From: Nannocystis sp.
Lineage (GTDB): Bacteria; Myxococcota_A; Polyangia; Nannocystales; Nannocystaceae
DNA length: 40,231 nucleotides
NCBI RefSeq assembly: GCF_013812955.1
Contig: NZ_JACCSO010000582.1
Coordinates: 1 to 40,231 of the forward strand
Direction: 5' to 3'
Part shown: positions 1,535 through 27,856 of the stretch, piece after piece
Position numbering within the stretch: the first letter of the stretch is position 1
How the letters are laid out: each line of letters starts with the position of its first letter
Translations under genes and position numbers: made by a program
Notes under the pieces: model-generated
The model's input: the letters and a program-made list of their open reading frames with translations, nothing else
What the model was told of the DNA's origin: nothing
The model's database searches: none

Positions 1535-3172
1535 TCAGGCGCCCGAGCCGTCGCCCTCGTCGTCGAGCTTGCCGATCGTCGGCGCTCGAAACTTCGGCGT
1601 CGCGCTCGGCGGCATGAAGGTCCCCGGCTGCTCGGGCCGTCCGGCCTTGTTCGGCAGACCCGGCCCATGGCCACCGGTCGGCAAGTTGCCGAGCGGCACA
1701 TCGGGCACCGCGGGCAGACCGAGCAGCGTCTGCTTGCGCCGGAACACCGGCACATCGACCTCACCGGACGGCGTCACCGGCCGCGCAGGCTCGGGCAACG
1801 GCGGCAGCAACGACGGCAACGACGGCAACGGCAGCAGCACCTTGCTCGGATCGCCGACCATGGGCACCACCACCGAAGGATTGATCAACCCCGAGGGGAT
1901 CATCCCCTTCCCCGAAGACTCCGCCGACAACGCCGTCAACACCGAGTCGACGAGCGACGCAGTCGAGACCACAGGCGATGAGGCAGCCGAGGCAGTCGCA
2001 GCGACCGGCACGACCGGCGCCGTCGAATGCGGCGCCGAATCCTCGTCGCTCGTATCCTCTTCCTCATCGGGCTCGTCCTCCTCGATGGAGAACGAGCTCT
2101 CGTTCTTGCTCTTGCCCTTGCGGCCGCGCTGATCGGGGATGTTGAGCATCGTCCGCTCCTCGCGGCTGAGCACACCATCGACCGACCGCGCCGAGATCAC
2201 GCTCGCCTCGCCCGCGGGCCGAAAGCTCGTGGTCGGGTTGTCGAGCTGCGCCTGATCGACAGGGCCGATCTCCCCCGAAACGATCTCACTGGCCGCGAGG
2301 TCGCTCGACACGACGATCGTCGTCCGGCGCGAACGTGAGCGCCGCTCGCGACGCAGCTGCGCCTCGATGAACGCCTCCAGCCCCTTGCGCGCGCGCTTGA
2401 CCAGATCCGCGACCACCGGATCGGCCTCGCCGCCCTGCAAGCTGATCTGCACCTGCTCGAGCAGCTCCGAGGACTCGTCGGTGCGCTCGGTCTTTTGCAG
2501 CGCCAGCGCCATCGCGGCGAGCACCCGCGGATGCTCGCCGATCGACTTGCGCGCCGCCTCGACATACGCCAGCGCCTGCTTGTTCTTCTTGTTCGACTCC
2601 GTCAACAGCACGATGCCGAGGTCGAGCTGGTCGCGCGGCCCCATCAGGTTCTCCTGCGCCAGTCGCTGCAACAGCTCGCGCGCCTCGGCCCGCTCGCCGC
2701 CGACCACCAGCGCGTGGGCCTGGGCGCTCACCAGCATCACCGCGTCGGGTTGCCCCACCAGTCGCGCAGTCGCCACGAAGTTCGCCGCCGCCGCCTTGCC
2801 GTCGCCGACCTTGAGCTGCAGCACACCCTCTTGCAGGGTCACCCACGCGTGCGGCGCGAAGAATTGCACCAACGACCGCTGCCGCAGACCGGCGAGCAGC
2901 TGCGCCGCCCCTTTACGATCGGCGGCCTGGACCGCGAGCCCCAGGCGCTCGAGGCGCCCGAGCACCAGCACCGGCAGCAACAAGAACAGCCCGAGGCCCG
3001 CCAGCACTAGCCCGACCCGCAGCGCCGTCCCCGATGCCAGCAAGCCGGCGAGGACCAATAAACCCGGCAGAGCGAACTGAACAATTCGCCCCTGCACTGG
3101 TCGGCCGCTGCGCATCCACAGGTGCGGCGGCACGACGACGGCCGGGAGCTCAATGTGCTTGGCAGCAGCCAT
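1535..3172 (-). CDS. Membrane-anchored helical-repeat (TPR-like) protein with acidic low-complexity tail
   Basis: A 545-residue protein of unknown function. Two closely spaced hydrophobic segments at about residues 30-50 and 52-72 form an N-terminal membrane hairpin. Residues about 80-270 are Ala/Leu-rich helical repeats of TPR type (for example AWVTLQEGVLQLKVGDGKAAAANF). The remainder is disordered: a basic patch (RRERRSRSRR), an acidic run (EEDEPDEEEDTSDEDS) and a Pro/Val-rich C-terminus. With a hairpin anchor the repeats and tail would lie in the cytoplasm. It is divergent from the M48-like/dynamin module and may share its promoter region. No Shine-Dalgarno is obvious; a promoter-like pair lies at 3190-3218. 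Function unassigned. Confidence 0.75.
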   Translation of the reverse strand: MAAAKHIELPAVVVPPHLWMRSGRPVQGRIVQFALPGLLVLAGLLASGTALRVGLVLAGLGLFLLLPVLVLGRLERLGLAVQAADRKGAAQLLAGLRQRSLVQFFAPHAWVTLQEGVLQLKVGDGKAAAANFVATARLVGQPDAVMLVSAQAHALVVGGERAEARELLQRLAQENLMGPRDQLDLGIVLLTESNKKNKQALAYVEAARKSIGEHPRVLAAMALALQKTERTDESSELLEQVQISLQGGEADPVVADLVKRARKGLEAFIEAQLRRERRSRSRRTTIVVSSDLAASEIVSGEIGPVDQAQLDNPTTSFRPAGEASVISARSVDGVLSREERTMLNIPDQRGRKGKSKNESSFSIEEDEPDEEEDTSDEDSAPHSTAPVVPVAATASAASSPVVSTASLVDSVLTALSAESSGKGMIPSGLINPSVVVPMVGDPSKVLLPLPSLPSLLPPLPEPARPVTPSGEVDVPVFRRKQTLLGLPAVPDVPLGNLPTGGHGPGLPNKAGRPEQPGTFMPPSATPKFRAPTIGKLDDEGDGSGA

Positions 3173-3299: not shown

Positions 3300-4292
3300 G
3301 TGAGCTCCCCACTCGATCTCGGCCGCTTCGTGCAACGCCGGCAGTTTCGCTCCTTCGAGCAGGACATGGCCCGCGTCACCTACGCCTACGGCGTCGACGT
3401 CCGCCGCTTCCGCTGGCTCAACCAATCGATGACGGCGCAAACCGTCATGCGCGCCCTCGAGCTGCGCTGGACGGTCGTCGCCGAGGAACTGATGCGCGAG
3501 GAGTTGCAGGCCCCCGAAGGTGCCGCCGCGCTGCCATTTCTGCAAGAGATCGTCCGGATCACCGAGCTGCTGCGCCTGACCCTGCCCAGGGTCCGCCTGG
3601 TCCGCCCGAACGCGCGCGACCCCTGGCCCCTCGTCACCCCGCTCGGCAACGCCCGTAACAGCGACGACTGGCTCGTCATCGACGCCCAGCGCCTCGCCGC
3701 CCTGGCACCCCCACAGCGCGCCTTCCTGCTCGCCCAGGGCCTCGGCCACATCCAATGCGGCCACGCGGCGCTGTTCATGGCCCACTACGTCTCGGCCCGC
3801 GAGCACCGCGGCCACGCCGCCCTGCGCCTGCTGCTGCGCCCGCTGAGCCGCATCGCCGCCTTCTCGGCCGACCGCGCCGCCCTGCTCGCAGCGGGCGAAT
3901 TTGAGCCCGCCGCCCAGATGCTCGCCCGCAGCGCCCAGGATCTCCCACCCTGGTACCCGAGCCTCGCAACCCTCCCCGAACGCCGCCGTGCCCTCGAAGA
4001 ATTCGACCGCAGCCGCGTGGTCGCCCGCGTCCGCTCGAGCCACCGCTTCGCCCAGGCCAATCCTTCTGTCACCGTCCTGGTCGAGCAGCTGATGCAGCGC
4101 CAAACCCCGGACGCCCTCCCCGAAGCCTCCCCGTCCACCACCGACACCACCACCACGCCAAGCACGCCCACCACCGACAGCGCCGCGCCCGCGGGCTCGC
4201 CGGAGTTCGCGGCGGGCTACGCGGTCCCGGCCGACGCCTGGCCGCTCGCACGCTGCGACCAGCGTCTCACCCAGCGCCTGGGGATCTTATAA
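3300..4292 (+). CDS. M48-like metallopeptidase homologue lacking zinc ligands
   Basis: A 330-residue protein related to M48-type peptidases. The region corresponding to the HExxH zinc helix reads LLAQGLGHIQCGH: His146 to Gln and Glu147 to Gly, with His150 kept. The downstream helix, usually with a Glu ligand four residues before the Asp of ADR, reads IAAFSADRAAL with Ala187 there. Two ligands and the catalytic Glu are therefore gone. I infer a non-proteolytic scaffold. The C-terminal 60 residues include a Thr/Pro/Ser linker. The start is set by the -10 element at 3284-3292; no Shine-Dalgarno is seen. The gene ends 4 bp before the first dynamin-like GTPase and is probably co-transcribed with both GTPases and rnhB. 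Confidence 0.72.
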   Translation: MSSPLDLGRFVQRRQFRSFEQDMARVTYAYGVDVRRFRWLNQSMTAQTVMRALELRWTVVAEELMREELQAPEGAAALPFLQEIVRITELLRLTLPRVRLVRPNARDPWPLVTPLGNARNSDDWLVIDAQRLAALAPPQRAFLLAQGLGHIQCGHAALFMAHYVSAREHRGHAALRLLLRPLSRIAAFSADRAALLAAGEFEPAAQMLARSAQDLPPWYPSLATLPERRRALEEFDRSRVVARVRSSHRFAQANPSVTVLVEQLMQRQTPDALPEASPSTTDTTTTPSTPTTDSAAPAGSPEFAAGYAVPADAWPLARCDQRLTQRLGIL

Positions 4293-4296
4293 ATTG

Positions 4297-6201
4297 ATGC
4301 CGAACGCCGACCTGTCCCCCAGCGACCTCGCGTCCACCCTCCACGATCGCGCCCAGGAGCTCGCCGACATCGCCGGCAAGCTCGGCCTGCCGCAGCTCGG
4401 CGAGCACATCCTCAGCGACACCGATCGCCGCCTCGACCGCGCCCAGCTGCGCGTGCTCGTGCTCGGTGAGATCAAACAAGGCAAGAGCACGCTCATCAAC
4501 GCGCTGCTCGGCGAGCCCCTCCTCCCCAGCGGCGTCACCCCGACCACCGGCGCCGTCGTCCAGATCGTTCGCGGCGACGAGCTCGGCCGCTTCCTCATCG
4601 CCCCCGACGGCCAGCGCAATTCCCTCGTGCCCGAGACCTTCGCCAGGCTCGCCCGCGGCAAAGAAGACTTCGTCGGCTCCCTCCTCCTCACCACCCCGAG
4701 CCCGCACCTCCCCCCGGGCGTCGAACTCATCGACACCCCCGGCATCAATGACCTCGCCCGCTTCCGCAGCCTCATCAGCCGCGGCGAGCTCCCGCGCGGC
4801 GACGCCATCATCCTCGTGCTCGACGCCACCCAGGTCCTCAAGCTCACCGAGGTCGCCTTCCTCCGCGACGCACTCATCGCCCTCGGCGGCACCGAGGACA
4901 CCGGCGCCACCCTCCTGCTCGCCCTCAATCGCATCGACCTCGTCCCCGAACCCGACCGCCCCACCCTCGTCGACCACATCCATCGCGAGCTGACCGCCGT
5001 GCTGCCCGGCCCGGTCGAGGTGTTTCAAACCGACGCCCGCGGCGCCAGCAAGCAGCCGGACAGCGACAGCTTCGGCGCCCGCGAAGTCGCCCGCCTGCGC
5101 GCGCGCCTGCTGACCCTCGCCGGCACCACCAAGAAGGTGCTGCCGACCCGCACGCGCGCGAGCCTGCAGCGCAGCGTCGACCTGCTGCTGCACCACACGG
5201 CCGTCGAGGCCCGCGCGCTTCGCCTCGAGTCCGCGGCCCTCCAGGCCGAGCTCGCCGCGGTCCGTGACGCATACACGCAGCAGCGCCTCGACCTCGACCA
5301 CATCGAGGCGACGATCACCGCCGGCCGGGCCCAGATCGCCCGCACCGTCCACGAGCACCTCGTCGACTTCCGCGCCGAGCTGCAGGCCTCGATCCTCGCC
5401 CAGCTCGAGCGCAGCGACCTGCGCACCACCGCCGACCTGCTGCCCGGCGCGATCCAGGACGCGCTGCTCCACTTCACCTACCACGAGGTCGAGCGCCTCC
5501 GCCTCGCCCTCGAGCAGCTCACCCGCGACGCCATCCACACCTGCGGCGAACAGGCCCAGCGGCGCCTCGCCGAGACCATGCTCAACCTCGGCTTTCGCGG
5601 CCCCGCCATCCACCTCGAGCCGCCCTCCGTCGGCGTCGAGGCCGGCACCCTCGCCGTCGGCATCGCCGGCACCGCCATCATGTACTTCGGCAACATCGTC
5701 GCCGGCATGCTCGTCACCATCGCCGCCCCGCTCGCCACCATGTACCTGCGCGAACGCTCGGTCCGCGAGCTCCGCGACGCCGCCCGCAAGACCGTCCCCC
5801 ACGCCCTCACCCAGAGCTTCTCCGACCTCGAGGCCACCCTCCTGCGCGCCGTCGATGCCAACGTCGCCGGCCTGCGCGAGTTCATCGTGCTCGCCCACAA
5901 CCAACTCGGCGCCCAGCTCCAGGCCCTGCTCGAGCGCGCCGCATCCTTCACACCACCCGCGCTGCCCGCCGCCAACACAGCCGGTCCTGACTCCACTGGC
6001 CCCACTGGCCCCACGGCCTCCGGCCTGACCGGCTCCGGCCCCACTGGCCCCACGACCTCCGCCGCCTCCGCGACCCCCGCCGCGGTCGCCACCCCGGACC
6101 CACGCCGCGCGGCCCTCGCCGAACTTCGCACCTTCGAGCAGCGCCTCGAGCAGCTTCGCACCGAGCTCGCTCACCTCGCACCCACCCCCGAGCCCGAATG
6201 A
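4297..6201 (+). CDS. Dynamin-like GTPase with C-terminal membrane segment (DLP1)
   Basis: A 634-residue bacterial dynamin-like protein. The GTPase motifs are clear: P-loop GEIKQGKST (about 57-65), switch Thr in PTTG (82-85), DTPG (146-149) and NRID (211-214) in place of NKxD. Helical stalk follows (about 270-440), then a strongly hydrophobic segment at about 448-483, expected to be the membrane-inserting paddle, and a second stalk stretch. Near the end is a low-complexity run of Thr-Gly-Pro repeats (about 568-590) and a final coiled-coil helix. Known bacterial dynamins bind and remodel membranes on GTP hydrolysis, often as hetero-oligomers of two neighbouring genes. The ATG follows the previous stop by 4 bp, and the last codons overlap the second GTPase (ATGA). 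Confidence 0.9.
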   Translation: MPNADLSPSDLASTLHDRAQELADIAGKLGLPQLGEHILSDTDRRLDRAQLRVLVLGEIKQGKSTLINALLGEPLLPSGVTPTTGAVVQIVRGDELGRFLIAPDGQRNSLVPETFARLARGKEDFVGSLLLTTPSPHLPPGVELIDTPGINDLARFRSLISRGELPRGDAIILVLDATQVLKLTEVAFLRDALIALGGTEDTGATLLLALNRIDLVPEPDRPTLVDHIHRELTAVLPGPVEVFQTDARGASKQPDSDSFGAREVARLRARLLTLAGTTKKVLPTRTRASLQRSVDLLLHHTAVEARALRLESAALQAELAAVRDAYTQQRLDLDHIEATITAGRAQIARTVHEHLVDFRAELQASILAQLERSDLRTTADLLPGAIQDALLHFTYHEVERLRLALEQLTRDAIHTCGEQAQRRLAETMLNLGFRGPAIHLEPPSVGVEAGTLAVGIAGTAIMYFGNIVAGMLVTIAAPLATMYLRERSVRELRDAARKTVPHALTQSFSDLEATLLRAVDANVAGLREFIVLAHNQLGAQLQALLERAASFTPPALPAANTAGPDSTGPTGPTASGLTGSGPTGPTTSAASATPAAVATPDPRRAALAELRTFEQRLEQLRTELAHLAPTPEPE

Positions 6202-9200
6202 CCAACGGCAGCGACGACCGCAAGGACGACCCCCCGGCACCCGCCACCACCCTGCGCTCGGTCGGCAGCGCGCTCGGCGGCTGGGCCAAGCGCGTCGGCA
6301 CGTTGATCGGCGAGGTCGCCGGTCCGCAACAACCAGAGGAGGTCATGCGCGCCCTCACCGAGGCCCGTGACCTTCGGCTCGCCGGCAAGTTCAGCGCCGC
6401 CCACACGCGCCTTCAGGATCCACTCAAAGCCCGCCCCAACGACCCGAGCCTGCTGCTCAGCCTCGCGCTCACCCTCGTGCAGCAGGCCCTCGTCGAGCCC
6501 GCCCGCGCCGATGTATTGCACGCCTTCGCGCAGGGCCTCGGCAAGCGCGCCGAACGCAACCCCGCCGTCCTGCTCGTGGAGGCCACCCAGAGCCTCCTGC
6601 GCCGCGAATTCGACCCCAGCCTCGACGCCCTGCGCCGCGTCCGCAAGCCGGTCGACGACATGGTCGGCGGTCTGCAACCCGAGACCCGCTTCGTCTTCCA
6701 CCTGCTGATCACCCTCGCCCACGCCAGGCGCGGCCGCCACGAACGCGCCCAGCTCGAGCTGCACAAGACCCGCGCCCGCCTGCCCGAGGGCACCCGCGGC
6801 CCGCTCCGCCAGCTCCTGCTCGCCGAGGGCGCGCAGATCTCCCTCGCCACCGAAAGCCTCGACGAGGCGATCGCCTGGCTCGGCAGCGAGGCCGAACCAG
6901 CCCCCGGCGACACCGATGACGCCGCCGCTCGCACCGCCCGCGCCTACCTCGCCCTCGCCCTCGCCGCCAAAGGCGACCGCCTCGGCGCCGAGGCGGCCCT
7001 CGCCCGCGTCGCCCCCGACGACCCGACCTGGGACGAACTCCGGGTCCGCATCGGCCTGTGCCTTGGGACAGGTCCCGAGAGCCAGCCCGAACTCACCCGC
7101 GACCTCGCCCTGCGCCACCTCCAGCGCAACCCCGACGAACCCGGCCGCAAGCGCCTGTGGGCCCTCGCCGAGGCCGCCACCTGGCCGAGCAGCGGCACCC
7201 TCGCCCCGCTCCCCGCCCGCACCGCCTGCCTCGAGGCCTTGCTGGATGCCGCCCGCACCGCGCCGCCCGACCTCGTCGAGCCCTCGCTGCAAGAGCTCGC
7301 GCACCTGTCCCTTCGAGCAGATCTACTCCCCGACTCGGTCGTCACCGCGATCCGCAAGCAGCTGCAACACCACGGCGCCACCGCCCCCGAGGAACTGCGC
7401 CTCGTGCACGCCCGCAAGCGCCTGCAAGACCACGACGAGCAGGCCAGCGACGACTTCCTGCCCGGCCCGCCGCCGCGCTTTCGCGCCCAGGCCGACCTCG
7501 GCGGCCCGCACGGCCCCGACGAGGTCTCGCCCCTGCGCGACGCCGGCCTGCGCCTCGGCGTGCTCCGCAGCCAGCGCGCCCTCGCCTCCGCCGAGCTGTG
7601 CCTGCAGCGCGATCTCCCCGAGCCCGCCCAGGAGTACCTCGTCGAGGTCCTGACCGAATTCCCGGAGCACAGCCACGCCCGCGCCCTGCTGATCCAGCTC
7701 GCGCGCCCGGTCGACAGCAACCGCCTCGAGGACCTGCTCACCGCCGCCACCGGCCTGCTCGCCGCGATCCCCGGGCGCATCCTCGGCGTGCCGCTCGGCG
7801 GCGTGCAGGAGGCCCTCACCGGCGTCATCGCGGCCCGCGAGCGCCTCGCCAGGCCGCTGACGATCGCCATCATGGGCGAGTTCTCGTCCGGCAAGAGCAC
7901 CTTCATCAACGCCCTGCTCGGCGAGGCCGTCGCGCCGATGGGCGTGCTGCCGACGACCTCCACGATCAACCTGTTTCGTCGCGGCCCCTCCGGCAGCGCC
8001 CGCGTCCACTACCGCGACGGCTCGATCGGCACCGTCGCCCGCGACGAGGTCCACACCTTCCTGCAACACCTCGACGACCTCGAGGCCAGCCGCATCCGTC
8101 ACATGGAGATCGAGCGCACCGGCCCCCGCCTCGGCGAGGCCGCCGTCGTCGACACCCCCGGCCTCAACGCCCTCGACGCCTTCCATGAACGTGTCACCCG
8201 CGAGTTCGTCGAGGAAGCCGACGCCATCATCTGGATCTTCTCTGCCACCCGCGGCGGCGCGGCCTCCGAGGGCAGCGCACTCAAGAGCCTGTGCGCCGAC
8301 GGCCGCCAGGTCCTCGGCGTGCTCAACAAGGTCGACACCCTCGAGCCCGAGGAGCGCGCCGAGCTCGTCGCATACCTGCAGGACCAATTCGGCGCCCTCC
8401 TCCTCGACGTCATCCCCGTCTGCGCCAGCGCGGCCCTCGAGCTGCGCACCCAGCATCCTTCTTTCGCGCGCAGCCCCGACGAGAGCAACGCCCCCGCGAT
8501 CCCCGCGGGCCTCGACCACGATCACGACTCGGCCCCCGCGGCCGACCCCTTCATCGCCGTCGAGGACGCCCTCGAGCGCCACTTCTTCGAGCGCGCGCGC
8601 GAGCTCAAGCGCGCCCTGACCGCTCGCCGCCTCGCCGACGCGATGGCCCGCGCCCGCGCGGCCGTGCTCGCCACCGCCACCGCCCTCGACGCCAAGGCCG
8701 ACGCCGCCGCCATCGGCGACGCCAGCGACCCCGCCCAGCTCGAGTTTCGCCTCGTCAACTTCGCCGACGCCATCTACGGCCAGATCCTCGGCCTCGACGA
8801 CGTGCTCACCCGCGAGTGCCTCTCCCTCGGCATCCTCCGCCCCGGCGCCGCCCCGGCCCGCGCCTTCCTCGCCCCGCAAGACGCCACCTACCTGTCGGCT
8901 GTCCTCCGGGACAGCATGCTGCGCGCCCTCCAGACCTCCCTCACCGACCTGACCCAAACGCCAGGTGCCGAGGCCCTCGGCGACGTGCTCACCGGTCGCC
9001 TCGTGCCCTGGGCCCAGGGCTTCCTCGACAGCCTCGACTCCTCCGGCTTCGTCGCCAGCCTCGTGCAAGAGCACGGCCCCGCCGTCGCCAAGGGCGAGGG
9101 CGCCCTGCGCGAGCGCTACCGCGTCGCCCTGCAGCCGGTCGCCGCCAGCTGGCGCAAGTTCGTGCGCGGCCTGTTTCGCCACATCCGCGAGGCGCATCGC

Positions 9201-9314
9201 CAGGCCCGCCACACCGCAGCATCGGCGCCGCGGGCCGAGGCGCTGCGCCTGCGCACGACCACGGTCGCCAGCCTCGACGCCGTGGTCACCAGCCTCGAGA
9301 GCGTCGCGCCATGA
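6198..9314 (+). CDS. Helical-repeat/dynamin-like GTPase fusion (DLP2)
   Basis: A 1038-residue protein. Residues about 50-520 are Ala/Leu-rich helical repeats of TPR type. A dynamin-type GTPase domain follows: P-loop GEFSSGKST (about 560), PTTS switch, DTPGLNALD (about 651) and NKVD (about 709), then a helical stalk to the C-terminus. No convincing transmembrane segment is seen, unlike DLP1; an amphipathic stretch near residue 20 (GSALGGWAKRVGTLIGEVAG) could touch membrane. The start codon overlaps the DLP1 stop and its own stop overlaps rnhB, so the three are translationally coupled. I infer that DLP1 and DLP2 work as a pair, with the repeats recruiting a partner. Target membrane and trigger are unknown. 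Confidence 0.9.
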   Translation: MTNGSDDRKDDPPAPATTLRSVGSALGGWAKRVGTLIGEVAGPQQPEEVMRALTEARDLRLAGKFSAAHTRLQDPLKARPNDPSLLLSLALTLVQQALVEPARADVLHAFAQGLGKRAERNPAVLLVEATQSLLRREFDPSLDALRRVRKPVDDMVGGLQPETRFVFHLLITLAHARRGRHERAQLELHKTRARLPEGTRGPLRQLLLAEGAQISLATESLDEAIAWLGSEAEPAPGDTDDAAARTARAYLALALAAKGDRLGAEAALARVAPDDPTWDELRVRIGLCLGTGPESQPELTRDLALRHLQRNPDEPGRKRLWALAEAATWPSSGTLAPLPARTACLEALLDAARTAPPDLVEPSLQELAHLSLRADLLPDSVVTAIRKQLQHHGATAPEELRLVHARKRLQDHDEQASDDFLPGPPPRFRAQADLGGPHGPDEVSPLRDAGLRLGVLRSQRALASAELCLQRDLPEPAQEYLVEVLTEFPEHSHARALLIQLARPVDSNRLEDLLTAATGLLAAIPGRILGVPLGGVQEALTGVIAARERLARPLTIAIMGEFSSGKSTFINALLGEAVAPMGVLPTTSTINLFRRGPSGSARVHYRDGSIGTVARDEVHTFLQHLDDLEASRIRHMEIERTGPRLGEAAVVDTPGLNALDAFHERVTREFVEEADAIIWIFSATRGGAASEGSALKSLCADGRQVLGVLNKVDTLEPEERAELVAYLQDQFGALLLDVIPVCASAALELRTQHPSFARSPDESNAPAIPAGLDHDHDSAPAADPFIAVEDALERHFFERARELKRALTARRLADAMARARAAVLATATALDAKADAAAIGDASDPAQLEFRLVNFADAIYGQILGLDDVLTRECLSLGILRPGAAPARAFLAPQDATYLSAVLRDSMLRALQTSLTDLTQTPGAEALGDVLTGRLVPWAQGFLDSLDSSGFVASLVQEHGPAVAKGEGALRERYRVALQPVAASWRKFVRGLFRHIREAHRQARHTAASAPRAEALRLRTTTVASLDAVVTSLESVAP
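8898..8915. repeat. Mini-palindrome, CTGTCC/GGACAG family
   Basis: GCTGTCC and GGACAGC form a 7-bp stem with a 4-nt loop, inside the DLP2 coding sequence. Near-identical palindromes recur in the window (see findings). Confidence 0.55.
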
Positions 9315-9982
9315 AGGACCACGTCTACGGCGTCGACGAAGCCGGCCGCGGCCCGGTCCTCGGACCGATGGCGCTCGCGGTGGTCGTGCTCGACCGCAAG
9401 TCGACGCGCGCGCTCACCAAGCTCGGCGTCCAGGACAGCAAGCGCTTCGGCGCCGGTCCCAGGGCGCAGGAGCAGCGCGCCGCCCTCACCGCGCAGATCC
9501 ACAAGCACGCGATCGCCTGGACCTGCGAGCTCGTGTCCGTCGAGATCATCGACGAGCACACCTTCCGCGGCCAGCTCAACCGCCTCGAGCAAGACGTCGC
9601 CTTGCAGCTGCTGCGCCGACTCGGCGCCTCGCTCGAGGCCGCGATCATCTGCGACGGCGCCAACCTGTTTCGCCCGCTGCAGCAACACTACCCCCGGCTA
9701 CAGGCCGTGAACGACGGCGAGTCCCACCACGTCGCCGTCGCCGCCGCCTCGATCATCGCCAAGCACGCCCGCGACACCGCCTTCGCCGAGATCTGCAGCC
9801 GCTACGAGCCGGAGTTCGGCCCCGTCGCCGGCGGCGGTTATGCCAACGCCGCCACCCGCCGCTTCCTCACCGCCTACGCCGCGGCCCGCGGCGGCCTGCC
9901 ACCCGAGGCCCGCAAGAGCTGGGGCGCCGAGAAGCTCCCAACACGGCCCGCGACCACCCAGCTCTCCCTCGCCGAGCTCTGA
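9311..9982 (+). CDS. rnhB: Ribonuclease HII
   Basis: A 223-residue RNase HII, which nicks RNA in RNA/DNA hybrids and removes misincorporated ribonucleotides. The catalytic DEDD set is visible: VDEAGRG (Asp9, Glu10), ICDGAN and the Asp of AKHARDTAF. Motifs are divergent: GPVLGPM for the common GPLAGPV, and the strand before AAASIIAK reads NDGESHHVAV instead of KGDAxSxxIA. The C-terminal tail contains the PxHR-like region only weakly. The ATG overlaps the stop of DLP2 (ATGA), so it is the last gene of the dynamin operon; the link may be regulatory rather than functional. Confidence 0.88.
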   Translation: MKDHVYGVDEAGRGPVLGPMALAVVVLDRKSTRALTKLGVQDSKRFGAGPRAQEQRAALTAQIHKHAIAWTCELVSVEIIDEHTFRGQLNRLEQDVALQLLRRLGASLEAAIICDGANLFRPLQQHYPRLQAVNDGESHHVAVAAASIIAKHARDTAFAEICSRYEPEFGPVAGGGYANAATRRFLTAYAAARGGLPPEARKSWGAEKLPTRPATTQLSLAEL

Positions 9983-10144: not shown

Positions 10145-10861
10145 TCACTCCTTATTAAAATCCGCGAGCTCGGTGCGCAGCTTGTCGAGCGCGTAGCGCA
10201 TGCGACTCTTCACCGTGTTCTCCGGCGCGCCGACGATCTCCCCGATCTCCTTGAACGACAGCCCGCTGACCTGTCGCATCAGGAACACCTCGCGCTGGTC
10301 GTCGGGCAGCCCGTCGATCGCTGCGGCGATGCGCTCGCGGATCTGCGGCGCTGCGGCGGCGTCGTCGGTCGCCACCTGGTCGGCCGCGACCGTGTCGAGC
10401 ATCACCGGGCCGTCTTCACCGCCCGAGCCGCGCCGCGGCGCGTCCAGCGACACCGTGCGGCGAAACTTGGCCCGCCGACTCTCATCGACGCACAGGTTGC
10501 GGGCGATCGTGTACACCCAGGTCGTGAACTTCGCCGTCTGCTCGTAGCGCTGCTTCGACCGCACCACCCGCAGAAACACCTCCTGCAACATCTCCTCCGC
10601 GCGGCTGCGATTTTGCACGCTGCGCAGCAAGAAGTTGAACAGTCCGCGGCGGTGCCTGACCACGAGCACATCGAAGGCGCGCGCCTCGCCCTCACGAAAG
10701 CTCACCATCAGAGCCTCGTCGGCCCGCGTCTCCTGCAATGCGCCGGATGTACCGGTTGCACCGGCGGACGCCGGACCAGATGCGGATGGGCCGGATGGGG
10801 GGCCAGTGCTGTGGACTTCGTCCATGCCGTCGAAGCTGGGGCGGTGAAAGTGTGCGCCCAT
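10145..10861 (-). CDS. ECF-type RNA polymerase sigma factor
   Basis: A 238-residue group 4 sigma factor if started at the ATG at 10861; ATG 10825 is an alternative. Region 2 (FNFLLRSVQNRSRAEEMLQEVFLRVVRS, then FTTWVYTIARNLCVDESRR) and region 4 (LPDDQREVFLMRQVSGLSFKEIGEIVGAPENTVKSRMRYAL) are complete and typical. The first 55 or so residues are a Gly/Ser/Pro/Ala-rich extension absent from most ECF factors. AGGG about 8 nt before 10861 supports that start. No anti-sigma gene is adjacent, so control must come from elsewhere or from the extension. mutM ends 98 bp upstream, in the same direction. Target genes unknown. Confidence 0.88.
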   Translation of the reverse strand: MGAHFHRPSFDGMDEVHSTGPPSGPSASGPASAGATGTSGALQETRADEALMVSFREGEARAFDVLVVRHRRGLFNFLLRSVQNRSRAEEMLQEVFLRVVRSKQRYEQTAKFTTWVYTIARNLCVDESRRAKFRRTVSLDAPRRGSGGEDGPVMLDTVAADQVATDDAAAAPQIRERIAAAIDGLPDDQREVFLMRQVSGLSFKEIGEIVGAPENTVKSRMRYALDKLRTELADFNKE

Positions 10862-10958
10862 GCCCGAATCCCTGGCAAGCGGTCTGTTCGCGCGCCGGGG
10901 ATCGCCGCTGCGAGGCCCCGGATGGCCTTCGTGGCCCCGGCACTGCCCGCGCCGGCCC

Positions 10959-11822
10959 TCAGCGCAGCAGTCGGGTGCGCGGTCGCGGCTGGTCTTTGGG
11001 ACAGAAGGCCCCGCTACGCCCGCCCGACACGAAGCCCGCCAGCGGCGCACCGCAGCGCGGACAGGGTTCGCCGGCCCGGCCATAGACCTTGAGATCGTCC
11101 TGATTGCGACCGACCTCGCCGACGACGTTTCTGAAGTCTTTCAAGGTCGTGCCGCCGTTCTCGATCCCCTGGCGCAGCACGGTGACCACGGCGACGGCGA
11201 GTCGGTCCCAGGCGCTTCGATGCAAGCGACGGGCCTCGAGCTGCGGGTGGATCCCCGCGAGGAACAGGGCCTCGACCGCATAAATATTTCCGAGTCCGGC
11301 GACCGCCGACTGGTCGAGCAATGCGTCCCGGATCGGCCTGGAAGATCCCCCGAGCGCCTGCTCGAGCACGGCCCCCGAGAACCCGGTCTCGAGTGGTTCT
11401 GGCCCGAGCTCGGCGATCGGCGGCGTCGCATACAGTTGATCCAACGGTCCGGCTCGCAGCCCGCCGAAGCGGCGCGGATCGACCAGTCGCAGCTCACGGC
11501 CGTCCGCGAAGCCCAGCGCCAGGTGGGTATGCAACACCCGCGCTTGCTCGGCCGAGGCGATGCCGCAGCGTCCGCTCATCCCGAGGTGGATCACCAGCCC
11601 GAGCGCCGCCCCATCTTCACCCGTGAACGACCACAGGATGTACTTTCCGCGGCGTCCGACTTCACCCGGCATCGCCCCCTGCAGACAGCCGAGGTTCTCC
11701 TCCGCCCAGTGCTTGCCGATGCGCAGCCGCGCCGGACTGCGCCACAGTGAACGGACCGGCGTCCGCAGCTGCGCGGCGACCAGGCCGCGGCGCACGGATT
11801 CGACTTCAGGGAGCTCCGGCAC
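10959..11822 (-). CDS. mutM: Formamidopyrimidine-DNA glycosylase with altered zinc finger
   Basis: A 287-residue Fpg/MutM, which excises oxidised purines such as 8-oxoguanine and cleaves the abasic site. The start MPELPEVE provides the catalytic N-terminal Pro and Glu; Lys in GRRGKYIL and the helix-two-turn-helix region (DQSAVAGLGNIYAVEALF) are present. The C-terminal zinc finger reads CPRC, then 16 residues, then CPKD: the fourth Cys is Asp (about 10985-10995). Expected chemistry needs the first three domains, but DNA binding by the finger may be weakened. The gene overlaps the end of rsmA by 17 bp, so the two are co-transcribed with tsaD. Confidence 0.93.
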   Translation of the reverse strand: MPELPEVESVRRGLVAAQLRTPVRSLWRSPARLRIGKHWAEENLGCLQGAMPGEVGRRGKYILWSFTGEDGAALGLVIHLGMSGRCGIASAEQARVLHTHLALGFADGRELRLVDPRRFGGLRAGPLDQLYATPPIAELGPEPLETGFSGAVLEQALGGSSRPIRDALLDQSAVAGLGNIYAVEALFLAGIHPQLEARRLHRSAWDRLAVAVVTVLRQGIENGGTTLKDFRNVVGEVGRNQDDLKVYGRAGEPCPRCGAPLAGFVSGGRSGAFCPKDQPRPRTRLLR

Positions 11823-13825: not shown

Positions 13826-16162
13826 CTACTCACCGCGAAGGGTCTTGATCTGCAGGCGGATGCTCCCGGCGTAGCGAGATTTGGGGTCGAGCTCGAGGAA
13901 GCGCTCGTACGCGGCGATCGCGGCCACCCCGGCGCCGCGCTCCTGCTCGATCACCCCGAGCGCCATATAGGCCTCCACCAGCCCCGGATCACTCGTCAAC
14001 GCCAGATCCACCGCTTGCTTCGCCAGATCCAGCTCGCCCAGCTCGAGCAGCACGTTGGCCCGCAGCAGCCGCGCCGGCGCATGATTCGGCGCGGCCCGCA
14101 GCACCTCGTCCACCGCCACCAGCGCCTCCGGCAGCCGACTCGCCCGATGCAACTTCGCCGCGCGCTCGAGCGGAACCCTCAACGCCGTGAGATCGACCTC
14201 CGCCGGCTCCTCCAGTGTCGGCGCCGGCACCTCGGGCGCCGTCGCATCGACAGGCACCGGCACGGGGACCGGCGCCGGGAGCTCCGGCGGGACCCGATCC
14301 TCGCCACGCTTCGTGGTCACCTCGTCGTGCTTCGGCGCCGCGGGAGGCATCGCCTTGGGGGTCGACGGCGGGCGAGGAGTGGCGGCGCCCGACATCTTCA
14401 CCGCGACGAGCGCGACCGCCGAGAGCGCCGCCAGTGTCCCCCACAAACCCCAGTTCGACCGCGGCTTGGAGATCGGCTCGGGCTCCGCGGCGGGGATCAC
14501 AGGCGCCGGCGCCGGCTTGAGCGACGCGACCAGGGCGCTGAGTCGGCCCATGTCGTCCGAGCTCTCCTCGAGCAGTTGCGGCGAGACATCCTTGAGCCAG
14601 CTGGTCGAGGCCGTCGCGCGTGACGCCTCGGCGGGTCGTGACTCGTTCGCGGCCGCGGTCACGGCCGAGTTCGCGGCCACGTGCACCGCCGAATTCGCGG
14701 CCGCGCCGATCCGCGAAGACTGCGAACGAACGACGATGGACGTCGACGGCGAGTGGGTGCGAGCGTCGGGAACACCATCACCACGGGCGGACTGGAGCTC
14801 GCCGAAGGCCTCGGCGCGGGCGGTGCCCATCGGCACGGCGATGCAGCCGTCGATCGCCTCGAGGCGTTGCACGGTGAGGCCCTCGAGGATCGCGCTCGGC
14901 GGCGCCTTATCGGTGATGCGCTGCCGGGGCGTGGTCGGCTGGAGCACGCGGTCATCCTCCGACTCCGCCGGCAGCTCACGCACGTCCTCGGGGATGCCAC
15001 CCACCAGCACGTCGTCATGATCTGCGTTCGCGCTGAGATTGGGGAATGGCAACGGAAAGGCCGGCAGCGGCGGGAGGTCGGCCGCCGTCGCCACCGGCAC
15101 CACCGTCTCGACCGGGCCCGCCGGCAGCGGTGGAACTCCGGCGCGGGTCACTGCCGGGTCCCAGGTCTCGGCCGTGCGGGGATCGGGTGTGAGCGGCTCG
15201 ACGAGCTCGTCTTCCCCGCTGCCGAGCTCATCCGTCAGCAGGCCCTCGAAGTACAGACCACCGATCATCTGCAACACCTCGAGGTCATCGACCCCGGCGT
15301 CGTCGATGATCGCGATGATCGTGCGCCGGCCATCGAAGCGCCGCAGCAACGCCGCCTCGGCGGACGGCAGCGGCTCCGAACGGACCGCGAGCAGGCGCTC
15401 GTCCAGGGTCAAGATGTGGTCGAGCGGCGGCAGGCCCTCGAGCAGCCGGACCCACTCGTCGACCCGCCGCATGCCTTCCATCAACAGCGTCTGGGTCGCA
15501 TCCTCGATCACGCTGGTGCGGCTGATCGTCCGGAACTCGACCTCGAAGGTCCCCTCGCTGATCCCCAGCAGCCGGTACACCGCCGCCGCTGCCTGCAGAC
15601 GACCCATCTGCGCGTCGATCACCTTGCCGTCGCGAAACCACACGGTGGCATTGCCGAGGTCGGTCTCGAGCTCGATCGTCCCGCTCTTGCGCGAGATCTC
15701 GATCGTCTGCAGCAGGTCGACGATCGCCATGTCGGCGAGCTGTCCGCTGAACTTGGTGCGCGCGTCCTTGCGGCCGATCCGCTCCTGCTGCTTGCGCTGC
15801 AGCAGCATCTTCACCCGCGTCATCACCTCTTTCACGTAGATCGGCTTGGTGAGGTAGTCCTCGACCCCGAGCTCGAGCCCACGGACTTTGTCTTCCAGCT
15901 CGCCTGCGCTGGTCAGAAAGATGAAGGGGATCGCAGCCCAGCGCGGGTCCTGTTTGACCGAGCGACAGAACTCGAAGCCATCACCACCACGCAGCTGCGT
16001 GTCGGAGATGATCAGATCCGGCTCGGCGTGCTCGAGGTACTGCAGCCCCTGCTCGGCGCTTCCGGCGGTCGTGATGCTGAAGCCCGCCTTGCGCAGGCTG
16101 ACCTCCAGCACCCGCAGATTTCGGGCATATCCGTCGACGAGCAGCAGGTTCTGGCGAGCCAT
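13826..16162 (-). CDS. Response regulator with PATAN (DUF4388) domain, membrane segment and C-terminal TPR
   Basis: A 778-residue hybrid. Residues 5-120 are a receiver domain with phosphoacceptor Asp54 (IISDTQ), Thr84 and Lys106 (YLTKP). The acidic pair is reduced to Asp10-Gly11. Residues about 130-240 match the PATAN/DUF4388 domain ([28 protein letters not shown]). A long disordered region with Ala/Asn/Ser repeats follows. A single transmembrane helix at about 570-590 ([20 protein letters not shown]) comes next, then a Pro/Val linker and TPRs. The N-terminus would be cytoplasmic and the TPRs periplasmic, so it may carry a phosphorylation signal across the membrane. No histidine kinase is adjacent. 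The start [11 protein letters not shown] is chosen because it begins the receiver fold; longer starts lack support. Confidence 0.88.
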
Positions 16163-16262
16163 GGTCCCGTCCCCTACCGACCCCGGCCGGCCAGGCCGGC
16201 GAACGCCCGTACCACGCGTCTTCGGCCTGATGGGATCACGATTGAGCGCACCCTGTCCGCCC

Positions 16263-16292
16263 ACGATAGCAACCGCCGAGGCCCGATCGCAA
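16263..16292 (-). promoter_or_regulatory. Predicted promoter of the REC-PATAN-TPR gene
   Basis: On the minus strand TTGCGA (16287-16292), 18 bp, then TATCGT (16263-16268) preceded by TGC, an extended -10. The leader to the ATG at 16162 would be about 94 nt. Confidence 0.5.
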
Positions 16293-16355
16293 GCCAACGG
16301 ATCTGCATCCTGTGGGCGCAAAAGTGCCCCTCCGTGCCCGATCCGGGGAGATGAC

Positions 16356-16371
16356 ATGTCCCAAAGGACAT
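16356..16371. repeat. Mini-palindrome ATGTCC-CAAA-GGACAT
   Basis: Perfect 6-bp stem with a CAAA loop in the divergent region. It belongs with the CTGTCC/GGACAG set, but its location also fits an operator. Confidence 0.5.
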
Positions 16372-16482
16372 ATCACGGGAGCGCGCCGAAGTCCCGTCCC
16401 ATCCTTTAAATACCCCGGTGTCACCCGCGACGCGGCCCGGTCGCCGCGATCCGCCGATCTTCCAGGTTGCGGCGCGCCCATC

Positions 16483-16491
16483 TGCTAGGTT
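16483..16491 (+). promoter_or_regulatory. Extended -10 element of the rhomboid gene (leaderless)
   Basis: TGCTAGGTT, fitting TG-n-TAnnnT, ends 6 nt before the GTG at 16498. Transcription would begin at or next to the start codon. Confidence 0.45.
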
Positions 16492-16497
16492 GCGCCG

Positions 16498-17634
16498 GTG
16501 CAGGCCGACCCGGAGCAGGACCCCGACGATGACATGGCCTGGTGGCGTCGCCTGCCGCAACGGCCAGTCACCGCGACGCTGATCTCCGTCTGCCTGCTTG
16601 CCTATACAGCGAGCTTCGCCGCGGCGGTCGCCAGCTCGGCGGAGCCGCTGGACACTGCCCTTCGAAGTCTGTGGAGCCTCGAGGGTAGCGAGGCGGTGTT
16701 GGTGAACCTGGGTGCTCTCGACCTCACCCATGTCTGGGTGGACGGCGAGTGGTGGCGGGTGCTGACGACGGGATTCCTCCATGGGTCCTGGCTTCACCTG
16801 TTGCTAAACATGACGGCGTTGGGGTCGATCGGCGACTGGGTCGAGCACGCTTGGGGGCCATGGCGCACCCTGTTGCTGTTTCTGGCCAGCAGCGCCGGTG
16901 GTTGCCTCGCCTCCCTGATGTGGTGTGAGTCTCAGCTGGTCGTCGGCGCTTCTGCCGGCGTTCTTGGGCAGGCAGCGGCCCTCTGGCTGGCGCGTCGCTT
17001 CGGCTCCGAAGACCTTCAAGAGAAGATCTTTCCGATCTCGGTATTGAGCCTCGGCATCCTCATCGGCCTGTGCCTGTCTCTGGGCCTGGTGATCCCGGGG
17101 ATCGCTCAGGCCGGCCACATCGGCGGACTGATCACCGGGGCGGCGCTCGGCGTGCTGCTGCTACGGAGGCGGTCCACATGGCTGAACTCGCTCGGCGGGT
17201 TGGGTGTGGCTGGCGGACTGCTCACGGTCGCGCTGCTCGGTCGGGCGCCGACCTGGCAGGTGCAGTATCACGCGATGCTCGGGTTCCGCGCGACCGTCGA
17301 CGGCCAGGTGGAAGCGGCGAAGCACCACTTCGACGATGCTCTGACCCGCGACCCGGACAACGGGTCGCTGCTCAATGCGGTGGCGTACCAGCTCGCGCTC
17401 GACGGAGTGGAGCTGGAGCTGGCGCAGTCGTACGCGCTTCGGGCGCTTTCGACTGACCCGGCGAACCCCAATTTTTTAGACACGCTCGGGTGGATCTTTT
17501 GTCGCAAGGGCCAGGCCGCTGCTGCGGACCCTTTGCTCCGGGCCGCAGTGGCACTATCGGACGAGGCGGTCCCCGAGGTCATCGCCCACGTGGACGAGTG
17601 CAGCTCCGCCGCGGTCCCCCGCCCAATTTTTTAA
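16498..17634 (+). CDS. Rhomboid-family intramembrane serine protease with C-terminal TPRs
   Basis: A 378-residue polytopic protein. The rhomboid core is complete: HGSWLHLLLN (His/Asn helix), the nucleophile Ser in VVGASAGVLG, and the catalytic His in QAGHIGGLITG. About six to seven membrane helices span residues 20-245. The last 125 residues form two to three TPRs (AKHHFDDALTRDPDN, YALRALSTDPANPNF) on a soluble face. Rhomboids cut transmembrane helices of substrate proteins; the TPRs could select substrates. GTG 16498 is favoured by the -10 element just before it; ATG 16534 is an alternative. It converges on rsmG across the parS-containing gap. Substrate unknown. Confidence 0.9.
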   Translation: MQADPEQDPDDDMAWWRRLPQRPVTATLISVCLLAYTASFAAAVASSAEPLDTALRSLWSLEGSEAVLVNLGALDLTHVWVDGEWWRVLTTGFLHGSWLHLLLNMTALGSIGDWVEHAWGPWRTLLLFLASSAGGCLASLMWCESQLVVGASAGVLGQAAALWLARRFGSEDLQEKIFPISVLSLGILIGLCLSLGLVIPGIAQAGHIGGLITGAALGVLLLRRRSTWLNSLGGLGVAGGLLTVALLGRAPTWQVQYHAMLGFRATVDGQVEAAKHHFDDALTRDPDNGSLLNAVAYQLALDGVELELAQSYALRALSTDPANPNFLDTLGWIFCRKGQAAAADPLLRAAVALSDEAVPEVIAHVDECSSAAVPRPIF

Positions 17635-18730: not shown

Positions 18731-19888
18731 ATGAATCACCTCGACCGCCGGCTTCGAACCCGCCTTGAAACCCTCGAGGGCGCCGGGCTGAGCCGCGTCC
18801 CGCCGAGCATCACCGAGCGCGACGGCGTGCGCTACCGGATCCACGATCGCCCCGTCGTCGGCTTCTGTAGCAACGACTACCTCGGCCTCGCCAATCACCC
18901 AAGCTTCGCCGGGCTCGCCCCGACAGGGAGCGGCGCCACCGCCTCGCGCCTCGTCTGCGGCGATCTGCCCGAGCATCGCCGCGTCGAGGCTCGCCTCGCC
19001 GAGCTCGCAGGCACTGAATCAGCCGTCCTGTTCCCGAGCGGCTTCCAGCTCAATGTCGGGGTCCTCCCCGCACTGATCGAGGCGACGGATCGAGTTTCCA
19101 GCGACGCCCTCAACCACGCCAGCCTGATCGACGGCCTTCGACTCGCCCGCGCCCAGGTCGAGGTCCTGCCCCACGGCACCGCCCCTCCCGCAGTCGGTGA
19201 GGCCCCGCTTCACTGGTGGGTCACCGAGGCCCTCTTCTCCATGGACGGCGACTACGCGGATCCCACCGCCCTGGGCGCTCACCTCGAGGCCGGCGGTGGG
19301 CTCTACCTCGACGAAGCCCACAGCTTCGGTCTCTTCACCGCCGCCACTGGCCGCCCGACGGGCTTCGCCGGGCGCCACAACCTCCAGCCCACGGTCCTGG
19401 TCGGAACCCTCGGGAAATCCTTCGGCTGTGCAGGCGCCTTCGTTGCCGCATCCACCCTGACCTGCCGATGGATCCGTGCCTGTGCACGCAGCTTCGTGTT
19501 CAGCACCGGACCCTCGCCGATGGCCAGCGCCCATGTCGAACACGCCATCGAGCTGCTCGCCGGTCCCGAAGGCGACCTTCGACGACAGCAGCTCTGGGCG
19601 AACATCGACCGCCTGGCCACCCACCTCCGGGTGTCACCACGCTCACCGATCTTCAGCATCATCATCGGTGACAACCAGGCCGCCATGGGTCTGAGCGCCG
19701 CCTTGCTCGAGCGCGGCTGGCATGTCCAGGCGATCCGTCCTCCGACTGTTCCACGTGGAACGGCCCGCTTGCGCATCACGATGACCGCGAGCCACGACAC
19801 GACCCAGATCGATGCCTTCGCCACCGACCTCCGCGAGTTGCTCGCGGCCGACCACGGCGACCTCACTTGCCGATACAAAATCGGCTGA
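18731..19888 (+). CDS. BioF-like alpha-oxoamine synthase (8-amino-7-oxononanoate synthase family)
   Basis: A 385-residue PLP-dependent enzyme of the AONS/KBL group, which condenses an amino acid with an acyl-thioester; biotin synthesis is the commonest role. Typical motifs: FCSNDYLGLANHP, GSGATASRLVCGDLPEHRRVEARLAEL, the Asp/His of LDEAHSFG, and the PLP lysine in GTLGKSFGCAGAF. No other biotin gene is nearby, so the acyl donor is uncertain. ATG 18731 starts the conserved region and is divergent from rsmG (57 bp apart). The final 26 bp overlap the end of mnmE on the other strand. A parS site (15 of 16) lies inside at 19747-19762, encoding the VPRGT stretch. Confidence 0.85.
   Translation: MNHLDRRLRTRLETLEGAGLSRVPPSITERDGVRYRIHDRPVVGFCSNDYLGLANHPSFAGLAPTGSGATASRLVCGDLPEHRRVEARLAELAGTESAVLFPSGFQLNVGVLPALIEATDRVSSDALNHASLIDGLRLARAQVEVLPHGTAPPAVGEAPLHWWVTEALFSMDGDYADPTALGAHLEAGGGLYLDEAHSFGLFTAATGRPTGFAGRHNLQPTVLVGTLGKSFGCAGAFVAASTLTCRWIRACARSFVFSTGPSPMASAHVEHAIELLAGPEGDLRRQQLWANIDRLATHLRVSPRSPIFSIIIGDNQAAMGLSAALLERGWHVQAIRPPTVPRGTARLRITMTASHDTTQIDAFATDLRELLAADHGDLTCRYKIG
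19747..19762. promoter_or_regulatory. parS: parS-like site 4, within the BioF-like gene
   Basis: TGTTCCACGTGGAACG, one mismatch at the last base from the three perfect copies. Intragenic parS sites are known in other bacteria. Confidence 0.85.
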
Positions 19889-21170
19889 AAATACTGCGCA
19901 ACACCTCATCCCCGATCGGCCCGAGCAGGCCACGGCCGCTGACCTCGGCGAGTCGATGTTCCGCGATGCCGAGCTGGAATCCGACGACCTCGAGCAAGCC
20001 CTCGACCGCGAGCAGGCCATCGGCCTCCGCCAACGCCGCGAGCGCATCACTGGCCCGATCGCGATGCCGGGCCAACCCGATCCACGGCAAGCGCCCGCGC
20101 GACTCGGCCCACTGCGCCAGCGCGTCCCGGACCTCACCGACACCTTGCGCGCTCGCCACGGCTCCGACCCATCCCGCCCGCCGCGCCCCGAGATCTCGCT
20201 TGTTCTCGACACACACCACTTCCCCGGGTGGTGCCCCGAGCAACTCGGTGTCGGCAGCCTCGACCCACACGACCAGGTCAGCCCCATCCATCTGCTCGCG
20301 ACTGCGAAGGATCCCCGCGTCCTCGAGCACGTCGCACGCCACGCGGAGTCCGGCCGTGTCGACCAGCACGACTTCATGCGCACCGAGGCGCAGCTCTGCC
20401 TCGACATAGTCGCGCGTCGTGCCGGGCAGCGGCGAGACAATTGCCCGCGGCCGTCCGAGCAACGCGTTGAACAGCGCGCTCTTCCCGGCATTCGGCGGCC
20501 CGGCCAGCACGACCCTGGCCCGCTCCCGCGAGCGCCGGCTGACCTCGAAGCGCGCGACCCAGGACCCGAGCACCGCCGCGACCTCGGAGATCTCCCCACG
20601 CCACCTGGTCAGGTCGCCCTCGGCGACATCGTCCGGAAAGTCGAGGTTGGCCTCAATTTCACAGCGAAGCGCATGCACCTGCCCCACCAGCGCTTCGACC
20701 TCCCGCCCGAGCTCGCCGGCGACCAGTCGGCGCGCCTGCTCGAGCGCCGCGTCCGTCTGCGCCGCGATCAACGCGGCGATGCCCTCGGCCTGCTCGAGGC
20801 TCAGGCGCCCGTGCTCGAAGGCCCGGCGACTGAACGCGCCGGCATCGGCAGCGACCGCCCCGAGCGTCAACAACCGCTCGAGCACGCTGCGAACATTGCG
20901 CTCGCCACCGTGCACATGCAGCTCGACCACATCTTCCCCGGTGAACGAGCCGGGTCCCGGCATCCGCACCACCAGCGCATCCTCTTCCGCCTCATCAGCG
21001 TCGGCTGACAGCCGCAAGCGCCGTCGGCTGAGCACCCGGGGTACAGGTGGCTCGCCATACAGCGCGCGGCCGATCTCCTCCGCACGAGGACCACTCAAGC
21101 GGACGATCGCCACGCCACCATCCGGGCTACCGGTGGCGACGCCGACGATCGTCGCGCGTTCGCTCCCCAC
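19863..21170 (-). CDS. mnmE: tRNA uridine-5-carboxymethylaminomethyl modification GTPase MnmE
   Basis: A 435-residue protein that works with MnmG to modify the wobble uridine of certain tRNAs. The N-terminal folate-binding domain (GGVAIVRLSGP; FTGEDVVELHVHGG) precedes helices and an inserted G domain: GPPNAGKS, PGTTRDYVEAEL, DTAGLR, and NKRD. The C-terminal CIGK (FCIGK) is intact, so the catalytic Cys is present. GTG start at 21170, two bases after the khpB stop, so the two are coupled. Last gene of the rpmH-rnpA-yidD-yidC-khpB-mnmE run; mnmG is not in the window. Confidence 0.95.
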   Translation of the reverse strand: MGSERATIVGVATGSPDGGVAIVRLSGPRAEEIGRALYGEPPVPRVLSRRRLRLSADADEAEEDALVVRMPGPGSFTGEDVVELHVHGGERNVRSVLERLLTLGAVAADAGAFSRRAFEHGRLSLEQAEGIAALIAAQTDAALEQARRLVAGELGREVEALVGQVHALRCEIEANLDFPDDVAEGDLTRWRGEISEVAAVLGSWVARFEVSRRSRERARVVLAGPPNAGKSALFNALLGRPRAIVSPLPGTTRDYVEAELRLGAHEVVLVDTAGLRVACDVLEDAGILRSREQMDGADLVVWVEAADTELLGAPPGEVVCVENKRDLGARRAGWVGAVASAQGVGEVRDALAQWAESRGRLPWIGLARHRDRASDALAALAEADGLLAVEGLLEVVGFQLGIAEHRLAEVSGRGLLGPIGDEVLRSIFSRFCIGK

Positions 21171-21172
21171 GC

Positions 21173-21736
21173 TCAGGCCCGGGCGTCGTCGCTCTCGGAG
21201 CGCCGGCCGTCACCCTCACGCGACGGGAACACCACCACATGCCGGAAGCGACCCTCGCCCTCCGACTCGGTGCGAAGCCCGTCCATCTCCATCAGCGTCA
21301 TGTGCACGACCCGCCGCTCCATCGCCGACATCGGATCGAAGTGGTACGGGCGGCCGCTGCTGAGCACCTTCTGACCGACCCCCTGCGCGAGCTCCTTGAG
21401 GCTCTTCTCGCGTCGCTCGCGGTAACCGCCGACGTCGAGGGTGATGCGCATCCGGTCGAAGCCCTCCGCCTGCAGCACGCGCAGCGTCAGGTACTGAAGC
21501 GCGTCGAGGGTGGCGCCGTGCCGGCCGATGAGCAGGCCGCCGTCCTCCTCGCTGGTGTTCAGGTCACAGTGGAGGCCGTCCTCCTCGATGTCGATGTCGA
21601 CCTCGACCTCGACGCCGAGGAGGCCGAGCACGGACTCGAGGAACGAGCGGACGACAGGGACCGCCTTGCCATAGTTTTCGTCCGCATTCACGGGGTGGGA
21701 TTCTGCCGGGGAGGCAGCTTGCTTGAGGTCAACCAT
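21173..21736 (-). CDS. khpB: KhpB/Jag RNA-binding protein
   Basis: A 187-residue protein with a KH-type domain (GLLIGRHGATLDALQYL, the GxxG loop) and a C-terminal R3H domain (RRVVHMTLMEM). Family members bind RNA, pair with KhpA, and influence cell division and elongation in other bacteria. The N-terminal Jag domain found in many homologues is missing; instead there is a short start and an acidic strand-rich stretch (VEVEVDIDIEEDG). A poly-charged tail ends it. AGGAGA lies 13 nt before the ATG, a rather long spacing. Position between yidC and mnmE is the usual one. Confidence 0.92.
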   Translation of the reverse strand: MVDLKQAASPAESHPVNADENYGKAVPVVRSFLESVLGLLGVEVEVDIDIEEDGLHCDLNTSEEDGGLLIGRHGATLDALQYLTLRVLQAEGFDRMRITLDVGGYRERREKSLKELAQGVGQKVLSSGRPYHFDPMSAMERRVVHMTLMEMDGLRTESEGEGRFRHVVVFPSREGDGRRSESDDARA

Positions 21737-21757
21737 GATTTCTCAACTCTCCTGAGA

Positions 21758-23368: not shown

Positions 23369-23371
23369 GAC

Positions 23372-24988: not shown

Positions 24989-25017
24989 ACCGTTTCCAAG
25001 CTGTGGACGGAGGGTTC

Positions 25018-27855: not shown

Positions 27856-27856
27856 C

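Follow-up and report, generated by a model that had tools for sequence, protein, structure and literature searches.

Why should a gene of apparent peptidase descent stand directly in front of two dynamin-like GTPases and a ribonuclease, and which of these neighbors belong together? The question is raised by a stretch of Nannocystis sp. DNA (GCF_013812955.1), and the window referred to throughout is the whole of that stretch, contig NZ_JACCSO010000582.1, 40,231 bp in length. Its reading frames include an M48-like gene, two dynamin-like genes (DLP1 and DLP2) and rnhB, arranged head to tail and all on the forward strand.

Four genes read as one series

The M48-like gene, which would encode an M48-fold pseudo-peptidase, occupies 3300..4292 (+; 330 aa) and runs from a GTG at 3300 to a TAA stop; this start is the one indicated by homologues (MSSPLDLGRF...), and an earlier in-frame GTG lies at 3279. 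DLP1, a GTPase of the BDLP/IniA type, follows at 4297..6201 (+; 634 aa), from ATG 4297 to a TGA stop, with an alternative TTG start at 4294. DLP2, a dynamin-like GTPase with a predicted N-terminal helical (TPR-type) domain, is at 6198..9314 (+; 1038 aa, ATG start), and rnhB, for RNase HII, at 9311..9982 (+; ATG start; PF01351, RNase_HII, 2.8e-26). An earlier, sequence-only reading of this DNA had described the two GTPases and rnhB as overlapping at ATGA, with the M48-like gene 4 bp upstream. The window coordinates bear out both overlaps (DLP1/DLP2 and DLP2/rnhB), and the M48-like/DLP1 gap is indeed 1-4 bp, according to the start chosen. At related loci a stop codon commonly overlaps the next start by 1 or 4 bp, and chance can be dismissed as the source of a gene order that dozens of genomes repeat.

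Both dynamins are recognizable by sequence. DLP1 matches PF00350 (Dynamin_N, 1.3e-18) and carries the GTPase motifs GEIKQGKST (G1), PTT and DTPG (G3), with NRID where (N/T)KxD is usual; its nearest solved sequences in the PDB are BDLP (2j68, 6e-14) and IniA (6j72, 8e-13). A paddle-like hydrophobic stretch is found at the expected place (residues ~458-480, 5668..5736, +; Kyte-Doolittle peak 1.77) and is conserved in all aligned DLP1 proteins. DLP2 matches PF00350 at residues 556-712 (2.9e-22) and Cj-DLP chain 5owv_C in the PDB (8e-16), and its hydropathy profile has no obvious hydrophobic stretch at the paddle-equivalent place. The earlier reading of a membrane paddle in one of the GTPases agrees with the profiles. 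In the predicted DLP2 model, which is of moderate quality (pLDDT 76.9, pTM 0.50), helix pairs extend over ~530 residues before G1 and are followed by a dynamin G domain and trunk; Foldseek aligns this model with IniA, BDLP, Cj-DLP and mitofusins (E 1e-7 to 4e-10), and TPR families score in one DLP2 orthologue (L126). The earlier reading had put some 470 residues of helical repeats ahead of this GTPase. In N. pusilla Na p29, DLP1 is represented by two overlapping frames (L032:8682-10513, -), by frameshift or sequencing error.

The identity of the M48-like protein is less evident from direct searches: Pfam, NCBIfam and PADLOC gave no family match to the window protein, and phmmer against the PDB gave no believable one. 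The AlphaFold model, built with 52 homologues in the input, is good (pLDDT 89.8, pTM 0.86). Foldseek on this model returned weak matches (best E 0.04), and VIA structural alignment placed M48/M56 gluzincins at the top of its list (BepA, Z 9.9; 3c37, 9.7; BlaR1, 9.1), with Ste24/ZMPSTE24 at Z 7-8 and HtpX at 6.4. In other families, the orthologues occupying this locus match PF01435 at 1e-21 to 1e-26 if they retain the zinc motif and at 1e-8 to 1e-12 if part of it is lost. From these orthologue matches, together with the alignment of the predicted fold, the window protein can be assigned an M48/gluzincin fold and descent.

Its zinc site is degenerate. Alignments place QGLGH (3735..3749, +; residues 153-157 when numbered from GTG 3279) where active relatives have HExxH, and the third zinc ligand, a glutamate ~40 residues downstream of HExxH, is replaced by alanine (AAFSADRA in the window, RRAEITCDRA in intact relatives), leaving the protein without three of its four catalytic and ligand residues. 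No TM-like segment was found in it. The family consensus includes a conserved C-terminal motif, AWxLARCDxRLTxRLGxL (4236..4289, +); in the AlphaFold model a helix at residues 316-327 (pLDDT ~97) stands behind a low-confidence, disordered linker, and D320 and L327 are invariant in the family alignment. One genome in the window's family also encodes a second M48, intact (GHELGH) and fused to TerB, at a site separate from the dynamin locus (L063:10886-12121, -).

M48 and DLP1 form an ancient gene pair

The distribution of the four genes separates a constant core from looser companions. Of 290 Polyangia genomes, 187 contain M48 together with DLP1 and 99 lack the two; one genome has M48 only and three have DLP1 only, the lone M48 lying at a contig edge and the three DLP1-only genomes being 65-80% complete. 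Fisher's test gives p 5e-73 for this co-occurrence, a value which ignores relatedness, and the genomes missing both genes are spread over several families. Where both positions are listed, M48 is directly upstream of DLP1 on the same strand in 114 of 116 Polyangia genomes, the remaining two having the genes on separate contigs. Of the best 80 DLP1 loci in titled public records, 73 have an adjoining M48, four end at a contig edge and two lack it; one more (L161) was scored as non-adjacent although M48 adjoins, because the strongest dynamin domain found there was that of DLP2. The names of these records refer to Myxococcota, to the old 'Deltaproteobacteria', or only to a 'proteobacterium' or 'bacterium'.

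Further regions extend the pattern. They number 40, from ~20 other families; M48 is immediately 5' of DLP1 in nearly all of them, and DLP2 and rnhB lie downstream in about half. The pair is also found in Bradymonadales (f39, which includes a Lujinxingiaceae genome, and f47), mostly with an intact HECGH; f58 and f67 carry a degenerate version of it. L149 and L150, loci of the phylum whose dynamin is not DLP1, have no M48 alongside. M48-DLP1 is an ancient gene pair, inherited or absent together in Polyangia and present in Bradymonadales as well.

DLP2 is less constant. DLP2 is found in 169 of the 290 class genomes (E 1e-56), is unlinked in f14, f25 and others, and is strongly diverged in f11; the two unlike dynamins share one operon in the window and in about 10 families. 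The sequence-only reading had proposed M48-like, DLP1 and DLP2 as a trio whose neighborhood might be conserved among Myxococcota. The surroundings of the trio are strongly conserved in two classes of the phylum and the genes are coupled, but the constant core is M48-DLP1 only, with DLP2 elsewhere in several families.

In most genomes of the window's family the order is a divergent TPR/TM gene, M48-like, DLP1, DLP2, rnhB, and a convergent ECF sigma factor gene. The divergent gene (window 1535-3172, -) has two TM-like segments near its N terminus as well as weak TPR matches; it is kept beside the M48-like gene in most of this family and was not detected at that place in other families. The ECF sigma factor (window 10145-11083, -) is convergent to rnhB, has the same place across the window's family, and occurs at the equivalent position in f9, f10, f12, f16, f20, f23 and f24. 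In one genome (G016) an insertion of ~4.5 kb separates DLP1 from DLP2 (L042:5300-9700).

The chromosomal setting bears on a possible role in defense. The window also holds tsaD, mnmE, yidC, dnaA, dnaN and gyrB, the last five as an origin-region set at 19863-31587, and the locus is ~15 kb from dnaA; in four Nannocystis genomes the distance is ~25-27 kb, and in the checked complete genomes of other families dnaA is not near the locus. These origin-region neighbors mark the locus as core chromosome in Nannocystis rather than a defense island. Also close by, at window 13826-17634, are a response regulator containing DUF4388 and a rhomboid protein bearing a TPR at its C terminus.

An anti-phage context had been suggested for the tandem GTPases, and the locus might be imagined as a dynamin-based defense module resembling DynA or the candidate system LeoABC: DynA of Bacillus subtilis confers phage tolerance (PMC8844932), and PADLOC reports LeoA/LeoBC matches to the dynamins. 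Those matches are weak, however (36-47 bits), and at the level of the dynamin superfamily, and the distribution among class genomes is vertical, with none of the patchy, mobile or island-like context looked for. With tsaD, yidC, dnaA, dnaN and gyrB flanking a core, vertically inherited locus, the anti-phage suggestion finds no support here, and we regard a defense function as very unlikely.

Repeated loss of the zinc site and a shared change of rate

Was the M48 protein ever an enzyme? HExxH...E is intact in most relatives outside the window's family (f1), with Pfam M48 matches of about 1e-26, and the sequences therefore point to an ancestor that was very probably an active peptidase. The motif is intact in every sample of f11, f14, f22, f25, f31, f32 and f39. 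In the window's family the dead form is found in all 27 sampled members; other losses occur in f2, f3, f6, f9, part of f12, f16, part of f20, f58 and f67, and f12 includes GHQLGH, in which the catalytic glutamate alone has become glutamine. Mapped on the DLP1 tree, which was made by a quick method and has long branches, the intact or dead state changes eight times, at least six by starred branches. The description of a zinc-dead peptidase homologue accordingly holds for the window, but as a derived state, most relatives having the intact motif.

Loss of catalysis does not look like decay. In Nannocystis, dN/dS is 0.27 for the dead M48 and 0.17-0.21 for neighboring genes, which argues that the protein is retained by selection for something besides zinc catalysis. 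That only one of its catalytic and ligand residues survives would be expected of a decaying pseudogene product; against such decay stand an open frame in all genomes of the window's family where the gene was found, this dN/dS value, a well-predicted fold and invariant noncatalytic residues, and a pseudogene is scarcely credible. Loss of the zinc site happened several times and is complete in every sampled member of the window's family, and the protein is still under selection.

The stem of the window's family gives a further indication of which genes change together. From 29 shared taxa, the stem measures 1.74 changes per site for M48, 1.94 for DLP1 and 1.41 for DLP2, and 0.18 for rnhB. This joint shift makes M48, DLP1 and DLP2 look like one co-evolving unit, with rnhB outside it as a co-transcribed passenger. 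Might all four genes, RNase HII included, nevertheless serve one pathway? The dlp2/rnhB ATGA overlap is shared by the window and many families, as such a pathway might predict, but rnhB did not take part in the acceleration of the other three (0.18 against 1.4-1.9), is on the opposite strand or farther off in some members of the window's family (L039, L042, L045), and does not occur at the M48-DLP1 loci examined in f11, f14, f22 and f25. A single four-gene pathway is highly improbable.

Distances within the unit are unevenly correlated. Given rnhB, the partial distance correlation of DLP1 with DLP2 is 0.84-0.89, and DLP2 co-evolves tightly with DLP1; for M48 with DLP1 it is 0.71 inside the window's family and 0.32 outside it. 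A strict coupling of catalytic loss to a linked DLP2 was also considered and rejected: f4, f10, f23 and f24 combine a linked DLP2 with an intact M48, and f58 and f67 have a dead M48 with no DLP2 seen alongside.

The weak M48-DLP1 correlation outside f1 is what one would expect if the M48-like protein did its work apart from DLP1, as an envelope-quality or cytosolic factor with no tie to the dynamin beyond a common operon and regulation, the gene order having been frozen by a need for co-expression or by history; rnhB shows that unrelated genes may persist in an operon. Such a factor would not readily explain the near-perfect joint presence and absence of M48 and DLP1, with absences in several different families, the acceleration of M48, DLP1 and DLP2 together on one stem where rnhB was unaffected, or adjacency in two classes. 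We consider a separate factor unlikely, though deserving more weight than any of the other alternatives above.

A candidate regulator of dynamins and its known counterparts

A dynamin system with a dedicated partner is the reading we find rather probable: a vertically inherited chromosomal system for membrane remodeling, in which an M48-family protein serves as partner or regulator and has become a pseudo-enzyme in Nannocystis. DLP1 would use its paddle to bind the inner membrane. DLP2, paddle-less but TPR-armed, would join it as a hetero-oligomer, as Cj-DLP1/2 do, and may recruit or sense client proteins. The M48 protein may bind DLP1 and control its assembly, by limited proteolysis in lineages with an intact site (compare OMA1 on OPA1) and, where catalysis has been lost, as in Nannocystis, through binding only, the protein then being a pseudo-enzyme. 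The likely job would be maintaining, tethering or repairing the envelope of these large-genome bacteria.

Against the dedicated-partner model stand the modest M48-DLP1 co-evolution outside the window's family (partial r 0.32) and the limits of the three-gene module, which is not universal: f11 and other families have a DLP2 that is either unlinked or highly divergent. The action of M48 on DLP1 is inferred, and the persistence of both active and dead M48 forms fits binding and would also fit an M48 function unrelated to DLP1. A more specific and less probable proposal is a bacterial M48 switch on dynamin, independent of OMA1-OPA1 but alike in logic, in which M48 would clip or dock on DLP1 and so control membrane fusion or tethering; several lineages, Nannocystis among them, would then have made the peptidase a noncatalytic subunit and re-engineered both dynamins.

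A search of the non-subscription literature found no description of this M48-dynamin system, or of a dynamin in Nannocystis or Bradymonads, in keeping with the suggestion that an M48-like gene with tandem dynamins is an undescribed combination. The new element is the partnership with an M48 protein that has turned into a pseudo-enzyme more than once; as dynamins, DLP1 and DLP2 are of known kind. The control of bacterial dynamins is largely open, and M48 offers a dedicated candidate regulator conserved at class level, with natural active and dead versions available for comparison. If M48 acts on the dynamin, the locus would provide a bacterial counterpart of the best-known mitochondrial peptidase-dynamin switch and a case in which the recurrent origin of pseudo-enzymes could be tested. 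Polyangia and Bradymonadales, the two groups in which the pair occurs, are both large and comprise soil and marine bacteria.

How does the locus compare with systems already described? The M48 family (HtpX, Ste24, BepA) shares the predicted fold, and orthologues have HExxH...E, but the window protein lacks both HExxH and the third ligand glutamate. LeoABC, as listed in PADLOC, likewise contains dynamin-family GTPases, related here through weak superfamily-level matches; unlike the core chromosomal locus described here, it has no M48 partner. Nostoc BDLP1 and mycobacterial IniA are the closest solved relatives of DLP1 by sequence (2j68, 6j72) and share its hydrophobic paddle region, but the sequence match covers just 150-200 residues or so. 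We know of no M48 gene coupled to either of them.

In mitochondria, OMA1 acts on OPA1. The former is an M48 protein and the latter a dynamin-family fusion GTPase (PMC10078952), so that here too an M48-domain peptidase is paired with a dynamin-family GTPase. The likeness is offered as an analogy of possible working, with no common origin claimed; the window M48-like protein has no TM-like segment and has lost catalytic residues.

Bacterial dynamins are usually paired and hetero-oligomeric, and in Campylobacter jejuni two unlike dynamins, Cj-DLP1 and Cj-DLP2, adjoin in an operon (PMC6104087). The present locus resembles that arrangement in its operon of unlike dynamins, in the DLP2 GTPase, whose best PDB sequence match is 5owv_C, and in the strong covariation of DLP1 and DLP2 distances. 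It differs in having an M48 gene, a partner not reported for the Campylobacter pair, and in the predicted TPR-type arm of ~530 residues on one of its dynamins.
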